In this document: one piece after another, positions 33,764 to 46,265 of the stretch
Position numbering within the stretch: the first letter of the stretch is position 1
Layout: each line of letters starts with the position of its first letter
DNA from: Haloplanus salinus
GTDB taxonomy: Archaea > Halobacteriota > Halobacteria > Halobacteriales > Haloferacaceae
Assembly: GCF_003336245.1 (NCBI RefSeq)
Contig: NZ_QPHM01000001.1
Coordinates: 124,001-188,000, forward strand
Direction of reading: 5' to 3'
Length of the DNA stretch: 64,000 nt
Notes under the pieces: model-generated
Databases searched by the model: none
Told to the model about the DNA's origin: nothing
The model's input: the letters and a program-made list of their open reading frames with translations, nothing else
Made by a program: the position numbers and the translations under genes

Positions 33764-33881
33764 CGTCGGACGGTCGGCCGACGCGGGCAAATGGTATTTG
33801 CACGAATAGATGGGGACTTTATCAGTTCACGGCGGCTTCACCGACCGGTCCGCATATGGTGATCGGGGACGGAATGGGTGC

Positions 33882-35021
33882 ATGCGCAACGTGGACGCTG
33901 CGGGCCTCGGCATCGGCGACGACTACCCACCACGGATCATGGGGGTGTTGAACGTCAGCGAGGAGTCTCCGTACTCGCCGAGCGTCTTCAACGATCCCGG
34001 CGAGGCCGCCGCCTACGTCGACGAGGACCTGATCGGCGAGGGCGCCGACATCGTAGACGTGGGGCTGGAGTCGGCGAACAAGCGCTTCGAGGTACTCTCC
34101 GCGGAGGGGGAACTCGACCGCCTCGACACCGCCGTCCAGACGATGGAGAGCGTCTCCGGCGACGCCGTCTTCTCCATCGAGACCCGGTACCACGAGGTAG
34201 CCGAGGCGGCACTCGACGCCGGCTTCGACATGGTCAACGACATCTGTGGCTTCGCCGATCCCGAGATGCCACGGGTCTGTGCCGAACGGGACGTGGCCGT
34301 GGCGAAGATGGCCAGCCCGCCCGACCTCGAACGCCCCGGAGCCGTCGAAGACGTGGACGACATCTACGAGGCGCTGCAACGCGAGGGACTCACCGACAAG
34401 ACCATCGTCGACCCCGCGTTCGGCGGGTGGAGCGAGGCCAAAACCCTCGACGACGACCGCGAGACCTTCCACCGGCTACGGGAGTTCCGTGCCCTCGATC
34501 GGCCGATCCTCGTCTCGATCAACCGCAAGAACTTCCTCCGTGACTTCGCGGGGCGGTCGACCGAGGAGGCGCTCCCGGTCAGCCTCGCGGCCACCGCGAT
34601 GGCCGTCGAGCGCGGCGCACACGTGATCCGCACCCACGACGTGGCGGAGACGCGGGACGCCGCCCTGATCGGCAAGGCGTTCGCACGGGAACGTATCCGA
34701 ACGACCGACGAGGTAGCCGTCGAGGAACTCGACGTGACGACCGTCGGGGAGCTACGTCGCCACCTGGCACGGGTCGGCGGCGAGGCGACGGCCGCCCGGC
34801 AGGGCGTCGTCCGCACGTTCGAACTCTCGGGACTGTCGCCGGCCGAACGCGAGGCGCTCGCCGACGCCGCCCGAGGAACGTCCGTGACCGTCGCCGGCGA
34901 GGGCGCGAGTCGACTTCTCGTCGGAACGCCCACCGATCTGACCGCTGTCGTGGAGGCGGCGGCTGGGCGGTCCGCCGCCCTCGACGCCGCCCTCGACGCC
35001 GTCGCCGAGGAACTCGCGTAA
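33882..35021 (+). CDS. Dihydropteroate synthase-like protein
   Basis: The 379-residue protein has a TIM-barrel pterin-binding domain: PPRIMGVLNVSEESPYSPSV (the usual motif is NVTPDSFSDGG), EGADIVDVGLESANKRFEVL, MVNDICGFADPE, and IVDPAFGGWSEAKTLDDD where DPGIGFGK is canonical. A C-terminal extension of about 110 residues follows. These differences from bacterial DHPS mean the p-aminobenzoate chemistry is not certain. The neighbouring mptE gene supports a role in folate or methanopterin-type pterin synthesis. ATG 33882 gives the family-like N-terminus MRNVDAAGLGIGDDYPPRIM. Confidence 0.85.
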   Translation: MRNVDAAGLGIGDDYPPRIMGVLNVSEESPYSPSVFNDPGEAAAYVDEDLIGEGADIVDVGLESANKRFEVLSAEGELDRLDTAVQTMESVSGDAVFSIETRYHEVAEAALDAGFDMVNDICGFADPEMPRVCAERDVAVAKMASPPDLERPGAVEDVDDIYEALQREGLTDKTIVDPAFGGWSEAKTLDDDRETFHRLREFRALDRPILVSINRKNFLRDFAGRSTEEALPVSLAATAMAVERGAHVIRTHDVAETRDAALIGKAFARERIRTTDEVAVEELDVTTVGELRRHLARVGGEATAARQGVVRTFELSGLSPAEREALADAARGTSVTVAGEGASRLLVGTPTDLTAVVEAAAGRSAALDAALDAVAEELA

Positions 35022-35194
35022 CGCGTCGAAACCGCCCGACCGCAGCCGCGTGCTCGGGCACTATCGAACCACGATGGACCGTGGAGTAAGAGAAAGTTTA
35101 TGCCGGACGATTCAAAATATCCGGCGTGGAAGCCGGCTCGGCACACGGGTAGGGGTACTTGGTGCCGTTCCGGCTACTGTGGCCTTATTACCTG

Positions 35195-35872
35195 ATGAAC
35201 TACCAGATGTGGCCCCCGGTGTACGAACGCATCCTCGACGACTTCGGGTACGGGCGGGCGGGCGACGAACGCGCCCGCGACCGTCTCGCGGCGCTCGTGA
35301 CCGCCTTCGACGAGTCACGACTCGACTCGCTCGCCGGTGCGACCGTCGCCGTCGCCGGCGCCGGTCCGTCGCTCGAAGCGGAGGCGGCCGTCGCCGCCGA
35401 CGCCGACGTCGTGATCGGCGCCTCGGACGCGGCGGATCGGCTCCGCGAGGTCGGTGTCGCCGTCGACCTGATGGTCACCGATCTGGACAAGACGCCGGCC
35501 ACCGCCCGCGACCTGACCCACGAGGGCGTCCCCGTCGCGGTTCACGCCCACGGGGACAACGTGCCCGCCGTGGAGCGGTGGGTCCCGCGACTCGACGGCG
35601 AATACGTCCTGCCGACGACGCAGACCGAGCCAACGGGGCCGGTGCGCAACTACGGCGGCTTCACCGACGGCGATCGGGCCGCCTTCCTCGCGGACGCGTT
35701 CGGCGCCGCCGCCCTTCGGTTCCCCGGCTGGGACTTCGACGATCCGAGCGTCGGTCCCGAGAAACGGAAAAAGCTCGCGTGGGCCGAACGGCTGCTCCAC
35801 TGGCTCGAACGCCGACGCGACGAACGGTTCGCCGTCCTCGACGGTCGGCGTAACAACGTCGATCCGATCTGA
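35195..35872 (+). CDS. mptE: 6-hydroxymethyl-7,8-dihydropterin pyrophosphokinase, MptE type
   Basis: The 225-residue protein is of the DUF115/MptE type, the archaeal replacement for FolK: VAVAGAGPSLEAEAAVAADA, VDLMVTDLDKTPATARDLTH, VAVHAHGDNVPAVERWVPRL and AALRFPGWDFDDPS. It transfers pyrophosphate from ATP to 6-hydroxymethyl-dihydropterin. I chose ATG 35195 (MNYQMWPPVYERILDDFGYG) because the family starts there; the frame also offers TTG 35159 and GTG 35162. It follows the DHPS-like gene, the next step of the pathway, by 173 bases. Confidence 0.88.
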   Translation: MNYQMWPPVYERILDDFGYGRAGDERARDRLAALVTAFDESRLDSLAGATVAVAGAGPSLEAEAAVAADADVVIGASDAADRLREVGVAVDLMVTDLDKTPATARDLTHEGVPVAVHAHGDNVPAVERWVPRLDGEYVLPTTQTEPTGPVRNYGGFTDGDRAAFLADAFGAAALRFPGWDFDDPSVGPEKRKKLAWAERLLHWLERRRDERFAVLDGRRNNVDPI

Positions 35873-35929: not shown

Positions 35930-36907
35930 TCACTCTGCGCTCGTGTCGCCGCCGCTCGAACTCCCACCTCCGGAGTCACCGCCGCTCGAACTCCCACCTC
36001 CGGCGTCGCCGCCGCTCGAACCTCCGCCGTCCGAACTCTCGGAGCCACCGTCGCTCGAACTCCCACTTCCGGAGCCACCGTCGCTCGAACTCCCACTTCC
36101 GGAGCCACCGTCGCTCGAACTCCCACTTCCGGAGCCACCGTCGCTCGAACTCCCACTTCCGGAGCCACCGTCGCTCGAACTCCCACTTCCGGCGTCGCCG
36201 CCGCTCGAACCTCCGCTGTCGGAGCCACCGTCACTTCCACTTCCACCGTCCGAGTCGCCGCCGCTCGAACCTCCGCCGTCCGAACTCTCGGGGCCACCGC
36301 CGCTCGAACTCCCGCCGTCCGAACTGCCGTCAACCGATCCGTCACCGGTCCCTGCCGACCCGTCGGTGCCGGAGTCGCTCGCGCCATCCGAGTCCTCGTT
36401 ACCGCCGCTGTTCGATCCGTCACTGCCCGAATCATCGGCCACAACGCCGCTTCCGGAATCGGCCTCCGACCTGCCGTCGTCGGATTTGCCGGCGTCCCCG
36501 CCCGATCCGGTGGCGTCCGAATCGTCGGGGGTCGCCCCGTCGCCGGTGTCGCTGCCGACGGAGTCAGTCCCGGCGGCGGGCGCGTCGGTCGGCGGCGTTG
36601 ACGCCTCATCGTTCGGCGTCGACGCCGGTCCGCCGCGGTCGCTCGACCTGCCCGAGACCGTCGCGGTCGGCTGGCTCGGCGCGTCGTCGGGGGCGCTCTC
36701 CGGCGCGGCCGCCCCGGTTACGGCTGGTGGTCCGGGTGGGACGACGACCGGCTCGATCACCGGCAGGCCGGACACGTCGACCGTGGCGTCGGCGCCGCCG
36801 GTGTCGCTGAACACCGCGACGGTAGAGGCGCCGCCGACGGCCGCCGCGAACGTCACCCAACAGACGACGACGATGGGGAGGACGGCGCGCCGCTCGGGCG
36901 TCGTCAC
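35930..36907 (-). CDS. Exported Ser/Gly/Asp-rich repeat protein with SipW-type signal
   Basis: The 325-residue protein (GTG start at 36907) has a basic start (MTTPERRAVLP), one hydrophobic helix and a SipW-like cleavage region ASTVAVFSDTGGADATVDVS. The rest is low-complexity, first Pro/Ala/Thr-rich, then nearly only Ser, Gly and Asp, with a 10-residue unit (GSGSSSDGGS) repeated. It has no fold signature and may act as a flexible surface-exposed spacer, linker or matrix component. Its start overlaps the signal peptidase gene by 4 bases, making it the last gene of the pilus/matrix-like operon. A long Pro/Leu/Glu-rich frame on the opposite strand is an artefact of the repeats. Confidence 0.8.
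   Translation of the reverse strand: MTTPERRAVLPIVVVCWVTFAAAVGGASTVAVFSDTGGADATVDVSGLPVIEPVVVPPGPPAVTGAAAPESAPDDAPSQPTATVSGRSSDRGGPASTPNDEASTPPTDAPAAGTDSVGSDTGDGATPDDSDATGSGGDAGKSDDGRSEADSGSGVVADDSGSDGSNSGGNEDSDGASDSGTDGSAGTGDGSVDGSSDGGSSSGGGPESSDGGGSSGGDSDGGSGSDGGSDSGGSSGGDAGSGSSSDGGSGSGSSSDGGSGSGSSSDGGSGSGSSSDGGSGSGSSSDGGSESSDGGGSSGGDAGGGSSSGGDSGGGSSSGGDTSAE
36041..36190 (+). repeat. Five identical 30-bp tandem repeats inside the Ser/Gly-rich gene
   Basis: The 30-bp unit (starts GGAGCCACCG, ends TCCCACTTCC on the plus strand) occurs five times without a mismatch, and degenerate copies flank it on both sides. It encodes 10 residues of the exported protein per unit. Perfect identity at the DNA level suggests recent duplication and likely copy-number variation between strains. 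Confidence 0.95.
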
Positions 36908-38055
36908 CGCGTCCCCCCCGACTCGGCGGGCGTCGACGTGAGCGACTCCGCCCCCGTCCGGGCGGCTGATTCGGGGTCCGTCGTCGGCCCGAGGTGTCGC
37001 TCGATGGCGGCGACCTCCGCGTCGACGTCGTCGGGACGTGCCGGCGCGTCGCAGGCGTACGTCACGACGCCGTCGAAGACGACGTACCGGTCGCTGTCGT
37101 CACGCAGGAGGGGCCGGCCGAGGGTGGTGGCGATGGCCGAGAGGTCGGCCGGCGACGCCACGTCGACGCTCGGGCCGGCCGGGCGACCGCCGTCGATGCG
37201 CACCGCCGGGGCGGCCGCCAGTTGGTCGGCGGCCGTCGCCGCGTCGAACGGCGCGAACAGTCGCAGCGCGACCGTGAGGGCGAACAGCGCCCCGGCGGCG
37301 ATGACGAGGGTCACGGAGACGGCCGTCGGCGTCCCGAAGGCGACGTAGCCCGCGTAGGCGGTGAAGGCACCGAGGACGACGCTCGACAGCGTCAGGTCCG
37401 CGGGCGTGAACACGACTTCGTCGGGCGCGGCCGCCGTGGTCGTCGCCGCGCCCACATCGGCCGTGGTGTCCGCCTCCGCAACGGTGGCGTCCGACGCCAC
37501 ATCCACGTCGCTCGCAGCCGCCGGCTCCGCCCGTCCCGCACGTAGTAGGTCAGCGACTTCCGAGACGACCAGCAGGCCGAGTGGAAGCACCACGAGCGCG
37601 ACGAAGCCGGCCGGCGTCCCGACGAACTGGATGACGTAGCCGATCAACGGGATGGAGAAGACGACCCGCCCGATCAGCCGGTCCGGCGTCACGGGGGATA
37701 GGTCGGCGTCCTCGTTCGCGTCACCCTTGGTTTGGAAGGCCGGCGGGGCGTCGGCAGATCGCTCCACGTCGACCACCCGGTGCGTGATCGGGACGGCGTC
37801 GCCGGTCCGTTGCTCGAACACGATCACGTCGCCGACGGCGACGTCTCGGGCCGGCACCGAGTCGACGATCACCACGTCGCCCGGCGCGATGGCGGGTGTC
37901 ATGCTGGCCGTCAGGACCACGTAACTCGCTTCGGCACCGACGGTCGCGGGGACCGCGTAGACGACGAAGGGGGCGATCAGGGCCAGGAGAACGACGACGA
38001 GTACCGCTCGTCCAGCCGTCGGGGGCCGCAGAGTCTGCCGAATAGTGTGATTCAT
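36904..38055 (-). CDS. SipW/Sec11-type signal peptidase with C-terminal extension
   Basis: The 383-residue membrane protein has an N-terminal helix and the type I signal peptidase domain with catalytic Ser 51 in VVLTASMTPAIAPGD. His 92 in ITHRVVDV takes the place of the bacterial Lys, as in SipW and eukaryotic/archaeal Sec11, and Asp 112 lies in TKGDANEDADLS. A second helix follows. About 200 residues then form an Ala/Thr-rich linker, two more hydrophobic segments and a soluble C-terminal domain (LGRPLLRDDSDRYVVFDG). It sits among genes whose products all carry SipW-type signals, so it is probably their dedicated peptidase. It overlaps both neighbours by 4 bases. Confidence 0.9.
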   Translation of the reverse strand: MNHTIRQTLRPPTAGRAVLVVVLLALIAPFVVYAVPATVGAEASYVVLTASMTPAIAPGDVVIVDSVPARDVAVGDVIVFEQRTGDAVPITHRVVDVERSADAPPAFQTKGDANEDADLSPVTPDRLIGRVVFSIPLIGYVIQFVGTPAGFVALVVLPLGLLVVSEVADLLRAGRAEPAAASDVDVASDATVAEADTTADVGAATTTAAAPDEVVFTPADLTLSSVVLGAFTAYAGYVAFGTPTAVSVTLVIAAGALFALTVALRLFAPFDAATAADQLAAAPAVRIDGGRPAGPSVDVASPADLSAIATTLGRPLLRDDSDRYVVFDGVVTYACDAPARPDDVDAEVAAIERHLGPTTDPESAARTGAESLTSTPAESGGTR

Positions 38056-39236
38056 TTCGTTGCTCCGTCCGCATCGCTCGGGTCGGAAGCGCCGCTCCCG
38101 GTGGATTCAGCCGGACCGACGGCGTTCGGGCCGGGCGGGCCGTTCGTCGGTGGGTCCCCACGGTCCTCCGCGTCGCCACACGAGAGCGCAACGACGTCGT
38201 CGAAGGTGCCCGTCGATTCGTTCCAGTCGTCGAGTTTGACGCCCTCACCCTCGCAGGCACACCGCGAGAAGTTCGCCGGTGCGCCGAGGAGCGTCCCGCC
38301 CGTCGCGGAGACGGTGACCGTCGTCGCGCCCCCGGCGTCGAACCGCCGGAACGCCGGGCCGGCCTTGACGACGGCGTACTGGATCGGAACCGGCGCCGTG
38401 ACCGTGACGGCGAACGCTTCGTCGACCGCTCCGGTGACGTCGGCGCCAGTCTCCGGATCGTTGACCGTCCACGTGACCGTGTCGGGGGTGAACGACGACG
38501 TGCACAGCGAGACGTTGCTGATGGCGTAGCCGCCGTCGCCGTCGTCGCCCGCTCCACCACCCGTGGGCGAGCACGGCGGGAAGGTGAACGACGGGTTCTC
38601 CCCCGTCACCGGCCGCCGCGGCGTCGGAACGTGTCGCGACTGTTCGGCGTAGGCGTCGATGGTGATGGGGAAGGGCGACGCGGCCTTCAGCTCCCGGACG
38701 GTACCGGGGTCGTCTGCGAGTGCCGTCGGGGCCCAGACGTCGACGGTGAGACACACCGCGCCGTCCGAACCGGGTGTCACCGGGTCGCCGCCGCCCGCGA
38801 GGGCGGTGAGGAGGACCCCACCCCCGTCGGGGGAGCCGAGGACGTCGAGGAGGCCACCGAGCGAGCCGGTGTAAACCGTCTCGCCGGCGACGCGCAGTCG
38901 GGCGCCCAGCGCGTCCGCGACGGGGTCGGTGGGGCAGGCGCGGATCCAGATCCATCCGGGGTTGGAGTCGTCGCCGAGGCCGACACAGACCGCCTCGGTG
39001 GCCCGGTGTTCGAAGCCGTAGTCGTCGACGGTGAAGGATAGGTCGACCCGCCGGGTGTCGACGCCGTCGAGGGCGAGCGTCACCGCCCCCGCAGTCATGC
39101 GGTTGTTGGCGAACGTCTCGCGGTCCGAAAGGAGCGCGGCGGCGCCGCGGCCGGTCAGTGCGCCGACGGCGCCGACCGTCGGGATGGCGGCCAACAGGCG
39201 CCGGCGGTTCAGCCGAACCTCGCCCCGGTCGGTCAT
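38052..39236 (-). CDS. SipW-dependent exported protein, camelysin/TasA-like
   Basis: The 394-residue protein has a signal with RRR at 11-13, a hydrophobic core and the SipW-type segment GRGAAALLSDRETFANNRMT, then TAGAVTLALDGVD as the first strand. The middle holds paired cysteines (VCVGLG, IRACPTDP, VCLTVDVWAP). A Gly/Asp linker near residue 230 precedes an immunoglobulin-like beta domain (YAISNVSLCTSSFTPDTVTW), and the C-terminus is low-complexity. It is probably a structural or assembly component. It overlaps the signal peptidase gene by 4 bases. Confidence 0.8.
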   Translation of the reverse strand: MTDRGEVRLNRRRLLAAIPTVGAVGALTGRGAAALLSDRETFANNRMTAGAVTLALDGVDTRRVDLSFTVDDYGFEHRATEAVCVGLGDDSNPGWIWIRACPTDPVADALGARLRVAGETVYTGSLGGLLDVLGSPDGGGVLLTALAGGGDPVTPGSDGAVCLTVDVWAPTALADDPGTVRELKAASPFPITIDAYAEQSRHVPTPRRPVTGENPSFTFPPCSPTGGGAGDDGDGGYAISNVSLCTSSFTPDTVTWTVNDPETGADVTGAVDEAFAVTVTAPVPIQYAVVKAGPAFRRFDAGGATTVTVSATGGTLLGAPANFSRCACEGEGVKLDDWNESTGTFDDVVALSCGDAEDRGDPPTNGPPGPNAVGPAESTGSGASDPSDADGATK

Positions 39237-40069
39237 TCGCCCCCTCCGAACGGGTTCGTCGTCTCGTCGCAGGCCGTCGCGGCGAAGGCGATGTCGAGGC
39301 GCGCGGAGTCGCTCTGGATGACGTTGGTCACCGAGGGATCGATGCGCCAGCGGAGCGCGAGACAGCGCTGCGTCCCCGCGTCGATGCAGGGATCGCCGAC
39401 GAGGCCGAACGTGAGCGGGACGCCGCCGGAGAGCGCGTCGCTCACCTCGGCAAGCGTCCCGGACGCGACGAATGCCTCCTCGCTGAAGTCCCGGCGCCCG
39501 TTACAGCTACCGACCCCGAGCCGACCGGTGTCGTACCAGCACTCCACGTCGACGTAGTCCTGGAGTTCGCCGGTGTCCGTGGCCGTCCCGTCGGTCGTGC
39601 CGTCGCCCTCGGTTCGTTCCGGTTCGGTGAGGGAGTTCTCCGCGAACTCGTAGGCCTCGATGCTGAGCCACGCGCGGGCGTCGGCGCCGTCGGCCCGGAG
39701 GCCGATCAGGAGGAGTCCGCCGTCCCCCGGCTGCGCGTTGGGGATGGAGAGGACCGGCCCCGCGGCGACGGCGTCGGGACCCGTCACGTCGACGAACCGG
39801 CCGTCGTCGCCCGACGCGTTGAACGAGTCCGAGTCGTTCGTCAGCGGCGCACCGTCGGTGAAGCGGTTGCTCTCCTCGGCGAGGGTACCGTTGTATCGCT
39901 CGTACCACGCCACGCGGAGGGTCGGGCCGGTCGACTGGGCGTACGTGTACTGCGTGAACGCCGGGTCGTGACCCAGAGCGCCGACGACTCGCGGCCCGAC
40001 CGCGAGGAGGCCGACGCCACCGATGGCGGCCAAGAGCTTCCGGCGTGTGAGTGGTGAACCGTATGTCAT
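39233..40069 (-). CDS. Exported TasA-like minor component
   Basis: The 278-residue protein has a twin-arginine start (MTYGSPLTRRKLLAAIGGVG) and a cleavage region VVGALGHDPAFTQYT where other family members have xYFSDxE. The beta-rich mature part ends SVTNVIQSDSARLDIAFAAT, matching the NRIQSDGVTFDVGFYAEQ block of its paralogues. It also shares the SLTEPERTEGD segment with the vWA protein. It is the most diverged paralogue, so the SipW label is less certain here. Its stop overlaps the next gene by 4 bases; I prefer ATG 40069 over 40093. Confidence 0.75.
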   Translation of the reverse strand: MTYGSPLTRRKLLAAIGGVGLLAVGPRVVGALGHDPAFTQYTYAQSTGPTLRVAWYERYNGTLAEESNRFTDGAPLTNDSDSFNASGDDGRFVDVTGPDAVAAGPVLSIPNAQPGDGGLLLIGLRADGADARAWLSIEAYEFAENSLTEPERTEGDGTTDGTATDTGELQDYVDVECWYDTGRLGVGSCNGRRDFSEEAFVASGTLAEVSDALSGGVPLTFGLVGDPCIDAGTQRCLALRWRIDPSVTNVIQSDSARLDIAFAATACDETTNPFGGGE

Positions 40070-40087
40070 TGGAATCCCCGAAGGGAA

Positions 40088-40131
40088 GCCCACCGGCGGA
40101 GTCGAACCGCCCGTTACCGTCCCGTGTGGGT
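40088..40131 (-). ncRNA. Structured leader upstream of the 278-residue subunit gene
   Basis: On the coding strand an outer pair ACCCAC/GTGGGC encloses an inner stem GGCGG/CCGCC with loop TTCGACT. The same architecture occurs in front of the 498-residue subunit gene (42545-42600). A TATA-like ATACCTAATC lies about 35-45 bases upstream, so a transcript could begin close to this element. The T-arm-like loop sequence recalls tRNA, but no tRNA is present. Confidence 0.4.
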
Positions 40132-40216
40132 CGTGTCGTTTCTGACGCTACTGCTGCGCGGCCGTCGGGATTAGGTATGCCCGTCGTACCCCGATTTCGC
40201 GGGATTCAGGGTGACC

Positions 40217-41002
40217 CTACCGCGTGGCCGTCTCGTTTGCAGGCGCCGCGGCGTCGCCGTCGGCGACCGGTTCGAACGGGTTCGAGCCGTCCGGGTCGTG
40301 TCGACACTGGATCGCCGCGAACCGACAGTCGAACGCGACCGAGTCGGTGATCGCGCGGTTGTGATCCGGACCGTCGAGGGGGAGACACCAATCGACCGTG
40401 ACGGTGAGCGTCCCGGCCTCGCAGGTCGGCCCGTCGTCGTCGCGGGTCAGGAGAAGCCCCGATCCGGCCGCCGTCGCCAGTCCGACGAGGGTCCCGTCGT
40501 AGAGGACGCGGTCGGTCCCGTCGGCGTCGGCATCGGCGTCGACCCGAACGGTCACGTCGACGAGGGCACCCAGTTCGCCCGCGTCGGGCGTCCCGTCGCC
40601 CGCCGCCACCTCCTCCGGGCGGCGGTCGTTCTCCGCCGACTCGGCGATGTCGACCGCCAGCCAGAGCCGCGACGGGTTACCACAGACGTACAGAGTCGTC
40701 GTCAGCGTTCCGCAGTCGCCGGGTTTCACGTCCGCGAGTTCGACCACGGGGACGCCGTCGCCGTCGACGAGGCCGGGCGTGTCGCAGTCGACCCCTTCGT
40801 CCTCGCCGGGCGCCGACGCCAGCGGTTCGCCGTTGTACGTCGACCGGTAACCGAGTTTCAGGTCGAGGGTACCGGCGGTCGTGACGTTGGGTGCGCGTTC
40901 CCGGTCGGTGAGATAGCCCACCGACCCGAACCCGGCGCCCGCGCTACAGGCGCCGATGGCGCCGAGGCCGAGCAGGAGTTGGCGGCGCGAAAGCGTCGTC
41001 AT
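40217..41002 (-). CDS. SipW/Tat-type exported TasA-like subunit
   Basis: The 261-residue protein starts MTTLSRRQLLLGLGAIGACS with the twin-arginine pair at 6-7. The cleavage region is FGSVGYLTDRERAP and the first mature strand TAGTLDLKLGYRSTYNG. The conserved ELADVKPGDCGTLTTTLYVC and SVAFDCRFAAIQCRHDP blocks match its paralogues. An in-frame GTG at 41038 overlaps the previous stop by 4 bases and could be an alternative start adding 12 residues; 41002 gives the more typical signal. Confidence 0.82.
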   Translation of the reverse strand: MTTLSRRQLLLGLGAIGACSAGAGFGSVGYLTDRERAPNVTTAGTLDLKLGYRSTYNGEPLASAPGEDEGVDCDTPGLVDGDGVPVVELADVKPGDCGTLTTTLYVCGNPSRLWLAVDIAESAENDRRPEEVAAGDGTPDAGELGALVDVTVRVDADADADGTDRVLYDGTLVGLATAAGSGLLLTRDDDGPTCEAGTLTVTVDWCLPLDGPDHNRAITDSVAFDCRFAAIQCRHDPDGSNPFEPVADGDAAAPANETATR

Positions 41003-41020
41003 GTGTGTCTCCGGACGGAT

Positions 41021-41040
41021 GGGTGACCACGCGGTCACCC
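41021..41040 (-). promoter_or_regulatory. 8-bp hairpin at the junction of two subunit genes
   Basis: GGGTGACC and GGTCACCC form a perfect 8-bp stem with a 4-base loop, centred on the stop codon of the 498-residue subunit gene. In the transcript it could reduce read-through or set reinitiation at the next gene 20-40 bases downstream. Confidence 0.45.
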
Positions 41041-42531
41041 GACGACCGTCACGACCTCCGTTCCAGTCGTGCCGCTCGTCTCCCCGCGGTAGGTGAGCGT
41101 GATCGTAACCGTCCGGCCGCTCACGTCGATGCCCGTGCCGCCCGCGTCGCGGAATCCGGTCAGCGTGACGTCGGCGACTCCGCCGGGTGTCAGGATCGGT
41201 TCCTGGTCCGCCCCGTCGTTGTAGCCGTCGCTCCCGAAGGCGATGGTGCCGGGAAGCCCGACCCCGCCGGCGACGTCCGTGTAGCCGGGCGTCGAGGCGT
41301 CGACGTACACCTCGTACCCGAACCGACTCCCCGGATCGGCCACGTCGTCGCTCAACAGCGTGAGCGACGGATCGGCGGGCGCGACGGTGACGCTCGTCAG
41401 CGAGACGGACTCGCCGAGACCGTTCTCCACGTCGAATCCGAGGGCACTGGGGGTCGATCCACCCGAATCCGACGCCGTCGAGCCGCCGAGCGGGATCGCC
41501 GCCGCGTTCCGGACCGTCAGCGCCGCGCCCATGCCGCTACCGTCGTTGTGGCGGCACTGCTCGGCGTAGAAGCCCACATCGAAGGTGACGCCGTCGGACT
41601 GGATCCGGTTCGCGTGGTCGACGGGGAGCTCCCACCGGAACCCGACGTAATACGTCGCCGAGTTCTCGAAGCAGGCGCGGCCAGCGGCGTCCGCCCCGGT
41701 GTCCGCGTCGCCGGCGAGCGGAATCCCGTTGCCCGTCGACAGGAGCGCGAGCAGCTGCCGGAGCGTCGGGTTCGCCGTCGGGTCGGCGTTGCCGCCGAGC
41801 AGGACGGGGTCGCCGGCGTCGATTTCGCCGTCGCCGTCGGTGTCGTACCAGACCGTGACCCGAATCTCGTCCAGGAGTTCCACGCCGTTGTCGAGGTTCG
41901 TCGTCACCTCGTCGGGGGCGCCCGTGGTGTCGGGGTCGCTCGCCTCGGGCTCGGTGTGACCGTTCTCGCGGGCCTCGACCAGCCCGCCGTTCAGCCAGAC
42001 GTACCCGGGGTTGTCGAACAGGTGGAGGCTGAAGGAGACGGCCCCGCTGTCGCCGGGCTTGACGTCGTCGAGGTCGAGGATCGGTCCGTCGAGGTCCTGT
42101 GGGACGTCCGCGAACTGCGAGCGGAATCGGGACTCGACCGTCGCCTGCCGGTCCGCGTCGAGTTCGTCGTAGTCGACGCCGTCGCGCATCGCCGAGAGTT
42201 CGTTCCGCGTGAATATCGGATCGCGAACGCCGTCGGAGTCCTCGACGAACGGGTTGAAGAAGTCCGGGTTCGCGGCCAGTTGCGTCGGGTCGTCGGGGTC
42301 GTTCCGATACTCGTCCGGCGACGCGGTGACGTACTCGAAGCCGTCCGGCCCGGTGTAAGTCACCTGCCAGTCGAGCACGAGGTCGAACTCGCCGGCGGTA
42401 AACCGATTGTTCTCGAACGTCTCCTGGTCGCTGAAGTACGCAGTCGTGCCGAGACCGGCGCCGGCGGAGGCGACGCCGACGGTGCCGAGACCGGCGAGCA
42501 GGCGTCGGCGGGTGAGTGTGAGTTTTGTCAT
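41035..42531 (-). CDS. Major SipW/Tat-type TasA-like subunit
   Basis: The 498-residue protein begins MTKLTLTRRRLLAGLGTVGV, with the cleavage region GTTAYFSDQETFENNRFTAG (cut expected after Ala 31) and mature strand FDLVLDWQVTYTG. Conserved blocks follow: LDLDDVKPGDSGAVSFSLHL, NPGYVWLNGG, VELLDEIRVTVWYDTDGDGE and IQSDGVTFDVGFYAEQCRHN. About 150 C-terminal residues form an added beta-sandwich-like domain. TasA-family proteins form fibres by strand exchange in Bacillus and in archaeal bundling pili; that role here is inference from signal, fold pattern and operon. Confidence 0.85.
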   Translation of the reverse strand: MTKLTLTRRRLLAGLGTVGVASAGAGLGTTAYFSDQETFENNRFTAGEFDLVLDWQVTYTGPDGFEYVTASPDEYRNDPDDPTQLAANPDFFNPFVEDSDGVRDPIFTRNELSAMRDGVDYDELDADRQATVESRFRSQFADVPQDLDGPILDLDDVKPGDSGAVSFSLHLFDNPGYVWLNGGLVEARENGHTEPEASDPDTTGAPDEVTTNLDNGVELLDEIRVTVWYDTDGDGEIDAGDPVLLGGNADPTANPTLRQLLALLSTGNGIPLAGDADTGADAAGRACFENSATYYVGFRWELPVDHANRIQSDGVTFDVGFYAEQCRHNDGSGMGAALTVRNAAAIPLGGSTASDSGGSTPSALGFDVENGLGESVSLTSVTVAPADPSLTLLSDDVADPGSRFGYEVYVDASTPGYTDVAGGVGLPGTIAFGSDGYNDGADQEPILTPGGVADVTLTGFRDAGGTGIDVSGRTVTITLTYRGETSGTTGTEVVTVVG

Positions 42532-42544
42532 GGTATGGGGGGAA

Positions 42545-42600
42545 ACCCACCGGCGGGATCGAACCGCCGGACGGCCGCGCACGGAGCGCTCCGCGTGGGT
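42545..42600 (-). ncRNA. Structured leader upstream of the 498-residue subunit gene
   Basis: The coding strand has an outer 6-bp stem ACCCAC/GTGGGT and an inner perfect 7-bp stem CCGGCGG/CCGCCGG around loop TTCGATC, ending about 13 bases before the ATG at 42531. It shares its form and much of its sequence with the element at 40088-40131. It is 56 bases long, too short for a tRNA, and is better read as a leader that tunes translation or mRNA stability. Confidence 0.45.
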
Positions 42601-42620
42601 GGTGTCTCAGGACGAACGGG

Positions 42621-42638
42621 AGCCGTCGATCGACGGCT
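42621..42638 (-). promoter_or_regulatory. Hairpin downstream of the vWA gene
   Basis: AGCCGTCGATCGACGGCT is a perfect 18-bp palindrome that as RNA folds into a 7-bp stem with a GATC loop. It lies 23 bases after the vWA stop codon and before the next subunit gene. It could be a processing or attenuation site, or a protein-binding palindrome. Confidence 0.4.
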
Positions 42639-42661
42639 TCCGGCCGTCGATCAGGGTCGGA

Positions 42662-44476
42662 TCAGCCCCCTGCGTCGACCGACTCGTCCTCGGGGATCAT
42701 CCCGGAGCCGGTGTTGTGCCGGGACTGCTCGGCGTAGAAGCCGATGTCGAAGCCGACCGTGTCGCCCTGGATCTGGTTCGCGTGGTTGACCGGAAGCCAC
42801 CACTGGAAGCCGACACAGTGGGTGACGCCCGCGCCCGTGAACGGATCGCGGTCTGGATCGCTCTCCGGGTCGGCCAGCTCGTCGAAGGTCGTCGAGCGGT
42901 CGCCGTCGAGGGGCACGCCGCGACCCTCGTTGCCGGCGAGTGCGGTCAGCGCCACCCGGAGGCTGTCGTTGAGGAAGACCTCCTCCTGGACGACGACCTC
43001 GGCGGCGATGTCGTCGGCCACGTCGACGAAGTTGCTGATGGGCGTCTCGTTGTAGAAGCCCGCGCTCGCGATCTCGTCCTCGAGGTAGACGCTCAGGTCC
43101 GTGCCGTCACCGAGGTCGGCGTTCGGATTGTCGCCGACGTTCAGGACCGCGATCCGGGAGCCGTCCGCCCCGGCCTTGATAAGGTCCGCGACCGCGGCGG
43201 TCTCGTCCTGCTCGGCGGCGTCGACCGCCGAGTTGGTGGTGCCGCTGTCGTAGCCGGCCGTGTTGTCGTCGGCCGAGAAGCCCGGGTCCGTCCGCGGGGC
43301 CGTGTAGTCGACGCCGCCCACGCTGGCCTCGTAGGTCTTTGTCGTGTCGCCCTCGTAGTTGGGGCCGCCGTCGGAGATCACCACGACGACGGGCAGCGCG
43401 TCGGCGCGACCCTGGTCGTCGAGCACCTGGTCCGCGATGTCGAGGCCCGCAGGCAGGGGTGTGTTGCCGCCGTAGCTGATGCTCGGGAGGCTGAAGTTCC
43501 CGGGGTCGACCAGCCCGGAGAGACCGGTCACGCTGCCGCCGCCGAAGCCGACGGCGCCAACCCGCGCGGAGCCACCCGTCGGGAGGGCGTCGACGAACGC
43601 GGCGATACCGTCCTCGAGGTCGGTCTGCTCGTCGCCCGTGATCGAGCCCGAGGTGTCGATGGCGAGCATGATGTCGACCTCGCCACGGCGCTCGACCTGG
43701 TTGTCACAGTCCGGGTCGTACCAGATCCGGACCTGCATCTCGTCGAGCAGTTCGACGACGCCCTCCGTCTCGTCGGGGTCGTTGCGCTCGGGTTCGGTGA
43801 GCACGCCCTCGCCCGTGAACTCCTCGTTCAGCGCGCCGTTCAGCCAGACGTAGCCGGGGTTGTCACAGAGGTGGAACGAGAACGTCACCTCGCCGAAGTC
43901 GCCGGGCTTGACGTCGTCGAGGTTGATCAGCGGGTCGCCCGGACTGGTCACGTCGTTGCTCGTCCGGTTAGGTGCGTAGAGGCCTTCCTCGCGGGTTTCG
44001 GCGTCCGCGTTGCCCACGTTGGTCAGGCCGGCCTCGCCGCTGCAGACCTGCGAGTCGTCGAACTCGTCCTGAAGCCCGTCGCCGTCCGAGTCCGGAAGCG
44101 CCTCGATGGCGGTGGCGTCCCAGAAGGCGTCCTTGTTCTCCTGGAAGGTGCCCTCGCCCAGGAACCGGACCGCCACCGCGCGGGCGTCGGGGTTGTCGAC
44201 CGCGGGGAGGATGTACTGGCTATCGTCGAGGATGTCGATCTCGTCCTCGGGGACGAGTTCGACGAGGTCACGACCCGCCGAGCCGTCGTAGTAGTGTTCC
44301 TCCCAGTCGACGAGCACGTCGAGCGTGCCGGCGGTCAGCTGGTTGTTCTGGAACGTCTCCTGGTCCGAGAAGTACGCAGTCGTGCCGAGGCCCGCCCCCG
44401 CGGAGGCGACGCCGATGGTTCCGAGTCCGGCGAGTACCTTTCGCCGCGAGATGCTAAATTGTCGGTCGTTGGTCAT
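42662..44476 (-). CDS. SipW/Tat-type exported protein with von Willebrand A domain inserted in a TasA-like fold
   Basis: The 604-residue protein starts MTNDRQFSISRRKVLAGLGT (Arg 11-12) with cleavage region GTTAYFSDQETFQNNQLTAG (expected after Ala 34). TasA-like blocks (LDDVKPGDFGEVTFSFHL, NPGYVWLNGALN, VELLDEMQVRIWYDPDCDN) are interrupted by a vWA domain at about 267-497. They resume with FLNDSLRVALTALAGNEGRG and GDTVGFDIGFYAEQSRHN. The vWA MIDAS residues are complete: DTSGS (274-278), GGNTP (336-340) and SDGG (368-371). A plausible role is an adhesive tip or cap of the fibre. It is the first gene of the cluster. Confidence 0.9.
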   Translation of the reverse strand: MTNDRQFSISRRKVLAGLGTIGVASAGAGLGTTAYFSDQETFQNNQLTAGTLDVLVDWEEHYYDGSAGRDLVELVPEDEIDILDDSQYILPAVDNPDARAVAVRFLGEGTFQENKDAFWDATAIEALPDSDGDGLQDEFDDSQVCSGEAGLTNVGNADAETREEGLYAPNRTSNDVTSPGDPLINLDDVKPGDFGEVTFSFHLCDNPGYVWLNGALNEEFTGEGVLTEPERNDPDETEGVVELLDEMQVRIWYDPDCDNQVERRGEVDIMLAIDTSGSITGDEQTDLEDGIAAFVDALPTGGSARVGAVGFGGGSVTGLSGLVDPGNFSLPSISYGGNTPLPAGLDIADQVLDDQGRADALPVVVVISDGGPNYEGDTTKTYEASVGGVDYTAPRTDPGFSADDNTAGYDSGTTNSAVDAAEQDETAAVADLIKAGADGSRIAVLNVGDNPNADLGDGTDLSVYLEDEIASAGFYNETPISNFVDVADDIAAEVVVQEEVFLNDSLRVALTALAGNEGRGVPLDGDRSTTFDELADPESDPDRDPFTGAGVTHCVGFQWWLPVNHANQIQGDTVGFDIGFYAEQSRHNTGSGMIPEDESVDAGG

Positions 44477-44546
44477 GGTGGTGTGTGCCCGCCGTGGTCG
44501 ACGGAGGTCGTACCCCGGTTCGGGTCAGCCAACCCTGGGTGGCCAG

Positions 44547-44556
44547 GGGATATAGG
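44547..44556 (-). promoter_or_regulatory. TATA box of the TasA-like cluster
   Basis: The coding strand reads CCTATATCCC, centred about 75 bases before the ATG at 44476. Transcription would start near 44525, giving a leader of about 48 bases, longer than at most genes here. Confidence 0.5.
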
Positions 44557-44586
44557 TAATCACCGACTCCCTGCGTCCGAACGACG

Positions 44587-44625
44587 CCATAGCGGTTTCT
44601 ACGGCCACCATAGCCGCATCTACGG
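44587..44625 (+). promoter_or_regulatory. Two 18-bp operator-like elements 21 bp apart
   Basis: CCATAGCGGTTTCTACGG (44587-44604) and CCATAGCCGCATCTACGG (44608-44625) match at 14 of 18 positions and are spaced 21 bp, two helical turns. Each is itself an imperfect inverted repeat (CCATAG against CTACGG). A further CGTAG half-site follows at 44630. They lie just upstream of the cluster TATA and between the cluster and the divergent winged-helix gene, an ideal place for a regulator bound side by side on one DNA face. Confidence 0.6.
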
Positions 44626-44733
44626 TCGTCGTAGGAGTCGTCAGGACGCCCCTGAACTCGACCGTCGCGGTGGATGGTTCGCCCGGAACTCGCCGAAGGG
44701 ATCGTTACACCGGACGCCGACCGTGGTTCGGAC

Positions 44734-44742
44734 CCTATACCT
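44734..44742 (+). promoter_or_regulatory. TATA-like box of the winged-helix gene
   Basis: CCTATACCT lies about 29-37 bases upstream of the ATG at 44771. It is part of the 14-base string ATACCTATGCCCGA that recurs at 45338-45351, upstream of the next gene. Confidence 0.45.
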
Positions 44743-44770
44743 ATGCCCGATTCCCGCCTCCAATCGGTAG

Positions 44771-45397
44771 ATGAGTCAGCAGGTTACGCGACGGTCGATG
44801 ACGGAGTGTCAGATTCACGGCCTGCTCGCCAACGAGCGCCGGCGGGCGGTGATCGAACGGCTCGACGCCTCGACCGGTACCGTCACCGTGCGCGACCTGT
44901 CGACGGCCATCGCGGAGACGGAGACGGGACGGTCGCCGCCGCCGGCGCGCGTCCGCGAGAGCGTCTACACCTCGCTCCACCAGACCCACCTCCCCAAGCT
45001 GCACGCGGTGGGCGTCGTCGAGTACGACCGCGAGCGAAGCTTGGTTCACATCCGCCCCGCCGTTCGACAGATCGACCGCCACATGGACGTGGTGAACGGC
45101 CTGGGGATCACCTGGGGCGAGTACTACCGGGGGCTCGGGGTGTTCGGTCTCACGCTGGTGATCGGCTCGCTGGCCGGCCTGCCGGTCTTCGGCGCCGTCG
45201 ATCCGCTGCTCCCTACGAGCGGCACGCTCGCACTCTTCGCCGTCTCCGGCGCCGTCCAACTCTGGGACGACCGCTGGCGCGTCCGTCGAACGGTCGGCCG
45301 GCTGCTCCGTCTGCGAATCGGAACCGGCAGGTGGGCCATACCTATGCCCGAATGGCGCGTCGAGAACGACCGGGACGCCGACCGACGGCGGCCGTAA
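44771..45397 (+). CDS. Membrane-anchored winged-helix regulator, DUF7344-like
   Basis: The 208-residue protein has an N-terminal winged helix: IHGLLANERRRAVIERLDAS, then TVTVRDLSTAIAETE, then VYTSLHQTHLPKLHAVGVVE, which is the DUF7344 pattern of haloarchaea. Two hydrophobic segments follow (about residues 121-140 and 145-163), then a basic tail. It is divergent from the TasA-like operon and shares its control region, so it is the best candidate for its regulator, perhaps sensing the membrane. Confidence 0.82.
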   Translation: MSQQVTRRSMTECQIHGLLANERRRAVIERLDASTGTVTVRDLSTAIAETETGRSPPPARVRESVYTSLHQTHLPKLHAVGVVEYDRERSLVHIRPAVRQIDRHMDVVNGLGITWGEYYRGLGVFGLTLVIGSLAGLPVFGAVDPLLPTSGTLALFAVSGAVQLWDDRWRVRRTVGRLLRLRIGTGRWAIPMPEWRVENDRDADRRRP

Positions 45398-45401
45398 CAC
45401 C

Positions 45402-46265
45402 ATGCCCGTCCTTCACCGATACCAGAACCCAGCCTACACCGGTTCGAACCGGTGTGTCCCGTGTACGATCACGAACGTCGCCATCGCGGCCCTCGGCTCG
45501 CTGGCGCTGGCAGCCCTCGCCCCACCGCTCGGCGTCGCGGCCTTCGCCGTTGCGATCCTGACCATCTACCTTCGGGGCTACCTCGTCCCGGGAACGCCGA
45601 CGTTCACCCGCCGATACTTCCCCGACTGGCTCCTCGCCGTCTTCGATAAGGCCGATCCGACCCCTGCGTCGGCCGACGTAGAGGCGACGCTCGTCGCCGC
45701 GGGCGTTCTGCACGACGAGGCGGTCGACCTCGTCCTCGATCCGCGGTTCGCGGCGGCGTGGGACGAGCGGATGGCCGACGTCGACGCCGAGCGCGACGGC
45801 CTGAGCGACGCCGCCGCCAACCGGCTCGACGCGGTCGAACTGGCCGCGCTGACCGACCTCGATCCCGACGGACTCGACGTCCAGCGCTACGGTGAGGCGG
45901 TGGTCGCCACCCTCGACGCCGAGCGGATCGGCCGCTGGGAGTCGCGGGCGGCGTTCGTCGCCGACGTGGCCGCCGCACACGAACTCGACGACTGGGTGCC
46001 GCGGTGGCGTTCCATCCCCGTCGCCGGGCGGAGCGAACTGCTCGGGGGGCTCAGGCTGTTCCTCGAACGCTGTCCGGCCTGCGGCGCCGTGTTGACGCTC
46101 GATCACGAAGTCGTGCGCTCCTGCTGTCGCGAGCGCGACGTGATCGCGATGTCGTGTTCCGGCTGTGGGTCGCGCCTGCTCGAAGCCGACTTCGACGTGA
46201 GCGCGTTGGACGCGGACGCGGACGCGGACGCGGGGATGACGGCGTCGCCGGTCGAAACCCACTAA
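45402..46265 (+). CDS. Conserved haloarchaeal membrane protein with zinc-ribbon-like C-terminus
   Basis: The 287-residue protein begins MPVLHRYQNPAYTGSNRCVP followed by CTITNVAIAALGSLALAALA, a hydrophobic pair of helices (about 24-60). The soluble part ends with RCPACGAVLTLDHEVVRSCC and SCSGCGSRLLEADF, whose CxxC pairs could bind zinc. The function is unknown. It follows the winged-helix gene by only 4 bases on the same strand, so it is probably co-transcribed and may work with that regulator. Confidence 0.75.
   Translation: MPVLHRYQNPAYTGSNRCVPCTITNVAIAALGSLALAALAPPLGVAAFAVAILTIYLRGYLVPGTPTFTRRYFPDWLLAVFDKADPTPASADVEATLVAAGVLHDEAVDLVLDPRFAAAWDERMADVDAERDGLSDAAANRLDAVELAALTDLDPDGLDVQRYGEAVVATLDAERIGRWESRAAFVADVAAAHELDDWVPRWRSIPVAGRSELLGGLRLFLERCPACGAVLTLDHEVVRSCCRERDVIAMSCSGCGSRLLEADFDVSALDADADADAGMTASPVETH

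Follow-up and report, generated by a model that had tools for sequence, protein, structure and literature searches.

A TasA-like subunit cluster with its own SipW-type signal peptidase in Haloplanus salinus, a candidate non-type-IV surface or matrix fibre of Halobacteria

Within a stretch of 64,000 nucleotides of the Haloplanus salinus genome (the window, to which all positions refer unless stated otherwise), seven genes run on the minus strand from position 44476 down to 35930 in the order A-B-C-D-E-peptidase-SG, and a DUF7344 winged-helix gene is divergent from them (Table 1). A previous sequence-only reading of this DNA had given the same genes, strand and coordinates, including the divergent winged-helix gene, and was correct in these respects. 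The gaps between A and B, B and C, and C and D measure 130, 32 and 147 bp respectively, and the D/E, E/peptidase and peptidase/SG junctions are 4-bp overlaps, so that the last four genes (D, E, peptidase and SG) look translationally coupled. The cluster is bordered at 33810-35872 by a gene for a protein resembling dihydropteroate synthase by its sequence and by an MptE-like gene, the latter recurring as a neighbour of the cluster in several genera. At 45402-46265 lies a gene found beside the cluster in many haloarchaea, whose product has an N-terminal membrane segment and C-terminal Cys motifs.

Table 1. Features of the cluster and of the adjoining divergent gene, with positions in the window.
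Feature	Position	Strand	Description	Match
A	42662-44476	-	604 aa TasA-like subunit, Tat signal, donor motif FSDQETFQNNQLTAGTLD, vWA inserted	TIGR04088 3.2e-7; PF12389 1.5e-5; VWA_2 2.9e-8
vWA insertion in A	43148-43681	-	residues about 266-443	own vWA HMM 2e-43
B	41035-42531	-	498 aa TasA-like subunit, extra low-confidence C-terminal domain	TIGR04088 1.3e-8
C	40217-41002	-	261 aa TasA-like subunit, weak SipW motif GYLTD	TIGR04088 0.055, below cut-off
D	39233-40069	-	278 aa TasA-like protein, Tat signal, without donor/SipW motif	Foldseek 8aur 7.9e-5
E	38052-39236	-	394 aa, TasA-like domain and Cys-containing C-terminal region, Tat signal, LSDRETF motif	
Peptidase	36904-38055	-	SipW/Sec11-type signal peptidase with C-terminal extension	TIGR02228 8.9e-30
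SG	35930-36907	-	Sec-type N-terminus, AVFSD site, then Ser/Gly/Asp-rich disordered tail	
Candidate operator	44587-44625		two CCATAG-N6-CTACGG inverted repeats	
DUF7344 winged-helix protein	44771-45397	+		PF24035 9.9e-28

Whichever of A-E was used to grow the profile HMM, the same 161-162 proteins were recovered (40 relative loci); the five are thus, as had been proposed, paralogous, with one domain in common, and form a single superfamily. A and B match the SipW-dependent signal model TIGR04088 above its cut-off and also PF12389; D and E had no match in the HMM family library. The AF2 model of B, built from 58 sequences, was confident in its core (blocks of pLDDT 85-95) and weak in its C-terminal domain and N-terminus, and its comparison with the PDB by Foldseek returned the TasA fibre 8aur first (5.9e-5), as the sole match below 1e-3. 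The D model (26 sequences) likewise had 8aur as its first match and the sole one below 1e-3, followed by the Pyrobaculum AbpA bundling pilus 7ueg (2.4e-3), which is absent among the 50 B-model matches listed. This structural comparison, on which the proposed TasA relationship had been said to stand or fall, was made with the models of B and D, both of which place the TasA fibre first. The TM-scores on TasA are modest (0.40-0.42) and part of both models is of low confidence; scores of about 0.4 indicate a relation at the level of the fold and not close kinship. Sequence searches of the PDB with B, A and the family profiles matched neither TasA nor AbpA; the only proteins retrieved by the B-family profile were vWA proteins, a consequence of the insertion being present in most of its rows. 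By their membership of the family, A, C and E would be expected to share the TasA-like fold, and B is a candidate shaft subunit. The Cys-containing C-terminal region of E (38052-38600) has a consensus among relatives that includes iHtSCS.

The von Willebrand A domain of A lies inside the TasA-like domain, not at an end, and the same arrangement is seen in relatives from 24 of 40 loci, 37 proteins in all. Its MIDAS-type DTSGS and the later T and D of the metal site (DxSxS...T...D) are readable, and D.SGS is kept in most vWA-bearing relatives. The vWA protein described earlier is present, as A, and its assigned role needs revision, since the domain lies within a fibre subunit. The vWA-bearing A is probably an adhesive or exposed subunit.

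Twin-arginine signals are found on A-E, and the arginine pair occurs in 91% of the T relatives. FSD lies exactly 19 residues after RRxxL in 82 of 97 measured family members, and both elements are present together in just 3 of 614 other ORFs; these signals predict Tat export for all five proteins. The segment after the cleavage region has the family consensus FSDxExFxxNxLTAGxLDL. The donor strand of Bacillus subtilis TasA comprises residues 28-38, at the N-terminal end of the mature protein; fibres are impaired when this strand is removed (PMC9674648). A position-specific score for the donor/SipW motif was trained on half of the relatives' signals and evaluated against shuffled N-termini as the null; 99% of the held-out T proteins exceeded this null, compared with 76% of the E proteins and 0% of the strong D proteins. 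Among the window copies, A, B, C, E and SG scored above the shuffled N-termini and D fell inside the null, so that of the six proteins previously credited with SipW-type cleavage regions five retain them and D does not. The SipW-dependent signal and donor segment stand above the TIGR04088 cut-off in A and B and are weaker in C, E and SG.

For the peptidase, the match to the archaeal signal peptidase I model TIGR02228 lies above the cut-off, and that to the Bacillus SipW model (5.7e-23) is under the cut-off of the SipW model. The assignment as a SipW/Sec11-type enzyme with Ser 51, His 92 and Asp 112 agrees with this match and with the invariance of these residues, and of D118, in 25 homologues. 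The peptidase of the operon would process the subunits. Its C-terminal extension (36904-37560) contains two further hydrophobic segments, and in some relatives it also includes a small soluble domain that is conserved.

Of 194 genomes sampled from the class Halobacteria, 92 encode the peptidase and 73 the TasA-like family; all 73 also have the peptidase (Fisher 6e-36), and the full D-type operon is present in at least 44. All 53 strong (best) D matches, in these 44 genomes, have a peptidase gene on their own strand at a distance of 0.3-1.7 kb downstream. Each of 80 named-genome loci (Halorubrum, Halobellus, Halopenitus, Natronomonas, Halonotius, Natrialba, Haloglomus and others) has one or more TasA-like genes close to the peptidase gene, a count that is not fully independent because the loci were chosen by the peptidase and some species overlap the training loci; at least three such genes occur in 69 loci and D in 62. 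The TasA-like genes of these loci share the peptidase strand in 363 cases and are opposite in 6. The usual order is divergent winged-helix gene, two to four subunits, D, E and peptidase, E being the gene immediately before the peptidase in most loci; the conservation of gene order in other haloarchaea, suggested as a check by the sequence-only reading, was thus found. One congener lacks the system, which is therefore accessory, and outside Halobacteria just three short weak relatives were retrieved from 295 genomes of the phylum. Beyond what had been described before, these analyses add the twin-arginine signals of the paralogues, the vWA within the fibre domain and the class-wide conservation of the operon.

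Further members of the family were observed elsewhere. The genome contains another peptidase cluster (contig C1, 574000-592000), which encodes a 368-aa peptidase, a 328-aa TasA-like protein and a 674-aa protein with a Sec-type AVLSD site. Lone TasA-like genes with Tat/SipW signals lie on this contig at 475140, 1667731, 1800921, 1801971, 2084549, 2676699 and 190950, with no listed peptidase homologue nearby, and are possible extra subunits. Minimal versions, with a peptidase of about 180 aa and one to three TasA-like genes, occur in Haloferax and Haloarcula (loci L142, L145, L147, L150, L152 and L153).

The DUF7344 gene starts 294 bp from the operon, and in 57 of 68 clusters a divergent homologue is found no more than 1.5 kb from the gene of the first subunit. 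Between the DUF7344 gene and the operon lies a pair of CCATAG-N6-CTACGG palindromes with a spacing of 21 bp. Within the 3.55 Mb genome the exact site occurs nowhere else, which is modest evidence taken alone because a reversed-pattern control also has just 5 sites. A congener keeps the tandem-palindrome arrangement in a 110-bp spacer, and no single shared sequence emerged as a family-wide operator motif from the intergenic regions of relatives. In other genera the same spacer carries tandem repeats at 21-23, 31-32 and 41-44 bp (29 against about 2 in shuffles), spacings near multiples of the helical turn. Random, mostly coding segments contain as many repeats, at multiples of three; the signal is therefore the spacing and not the number. 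Control of the operon is probably exerted by the DUF7344 protein, with the tandem palindrome as its candidate operator.

D and SG differ from the other subunits in complementary ways. The strong D homologues keep the twin arginine and lack the FSD-type donor segment, the motif exceeding the shuffled null in 0 of 70. The SG homologues, placed directly after the peptidase gene and overlapping it, have neither twin arginine nor TasA-like domain; they keep FSDxExV and alternating hydrophobic residues, followed by a disordered acidic tail. The TapA N-terminus resembles the TasA donor strand (PMC9674648). Since SG is donor-like without the fold and D has the acceptor fold without the donor, SG can be read as a TapA-like starter, which may nucleate or anchor the fibre, and D as a candidate end subunit. 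The roles formerly assigned (tip, shaft, minor and flexible pieces) would change accordingly, SG being a TapA-like candidate rather than merely flexible and D donor-less. A competing view within the fibre interpretation, which we regard as a serious minority possibility, treats D and SG as minor subunits of the ordinary kind, or supposes that D uses an alternative short donor and does not end the chain. D indeed conserves a Tyr-rich N-terminal segment, YTxYTYAQ, that might act as another strand, and the SG copy of the window scores just slightly above the shuffled null, its donor resemblance being weak; set against this are the consistent lack of the donor motif among the D homologues and the positions shared by the SG homologues.

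From the predicted fold, the motifs, the conserved gene order, the co-occurrence and the DNA repeat, all computed directly, we infer an export route, cleavage, polymerisation, end roles, adhesion and regulation. The best-supported reading, with a probability of roughly 0.74, is that the subunits are exported, processed by the SipW-type peptidase and assembled into a TasA-like extracellular fibre held by donor-strand exchange. A-E would fold in the cytoplasm and leave via Tat, and the peptidase of the operon would cut before the FSDxExFxxN segment, freeing an N-terminal strand that would enter the neighbouring subunit, in the manner of Bacillus TasA. A, B, C and E would contribute both donor strand and acceptor fold, SG a donor strand only, and D would accept without being able to donate, thus ending the chain; the operon would be under the control of the DUF7344 protein. 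The complete scheme, a heteropolymer exported folded, with SG as donor-only initiator, D as acceptor-only terminator and vWA subunits for metal-dependent adhesion, is put forward tentatively, at somewhat less than even odds.

The subunits might instead be exported and SipW-processed and act as separate adhesins or S-layer-associated proteins that form no polymer. The extra domains (vWA and the C-terminal regions of B and E) and the single family genes scattered in the genome with no adjoining peptidase would suit such proteins, which we nevertheless consider unlikely, as the conserved donor segment sits where TasA uses one, the fold is that of the TasA fibre and several paralogues are present per operon, as in multi-subunit fibres. 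Camelysin-type (M73) proteases, suggested by the name that Pfam gives to the family best matched by the N-termini of A and B (PF12389, Camelysin metallo-endopeptidase), were rejected as very improbable, since this match spans just the signal and donor segment, HExxH occurs in 0 of 541 family members and the first structural match is a fibre subunit.

With the donor-strand fibre as the preferred reading, haloarchaea gain a strong candidate for a surface or matrix fibre that is not a type IV pilus and is tied to the Bacillus TasA matrix by fold and peptidase. The literature search found no paper on haloarchaeal TasA-SipW, which is weak evidence of absence as preprints were outside its coverage. 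The reading raises the question of how a strand-swapping subunit can be exported already folded, and the donor-only and acceptor-only proteins make the start and stop of the chain testable by deletions in culturable Halorubrum or Natronomonas species. If true, a heteropolymer with dedicated ends would represent a class-wide fibre of haloarchaea that is not a type IV pilus.

Archaeal type IV pili are also surface filaments of haloarchaea, but the peptidase of the cluster belongs to family S26 and is not PibD, and no type IV pilus family (PilB ATPase, PilC, PibD or type IV pilin) was detected among the cluster genes scanned. In Gram-positive pilus tip proteins, a vWA with a metal site is inserted in a pilin-type structural domain of one subunit, whereas the haloarchaeal host domain is TasA-like; the cluster genes scanned included no sortase gene. 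Pyrobaculum calidifontis AbpA, the second structural match of the D model, is archaeal and of a TasA-related fold, but belongs to another phylum and gave no sequence match. The threads of Sulfolobus acidocaldarius (Saci_0406, 7pnb) are a donor-strand archaeal fibre of loosely similar fold, with a weak structural match to B (E 0.13); they contain isopeptide bonds, and no SipW operon is reported for them (PMC9715654).

The system is of the same kind as TapA-SipW-TasA of Bacillus subtilis, with which it shares a SipW-type peptidase within the operon, an FSD/FND-type cleavage region, the TasA fold, a donor segment directly after the signal and one protein with a donor-like N-terminus and an otherwise disordered chain. 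It differs in that the haloarchaeal signals are Tat-type, and not Sec-type as on the Bacillus main subunit, in its greater number of paralogues (five), the subunits with a vWA insertion and the donor-less TasA-like member, as well as in the long C-terminal extension of the peptidase and the divergent DUF7344 putative regulator.
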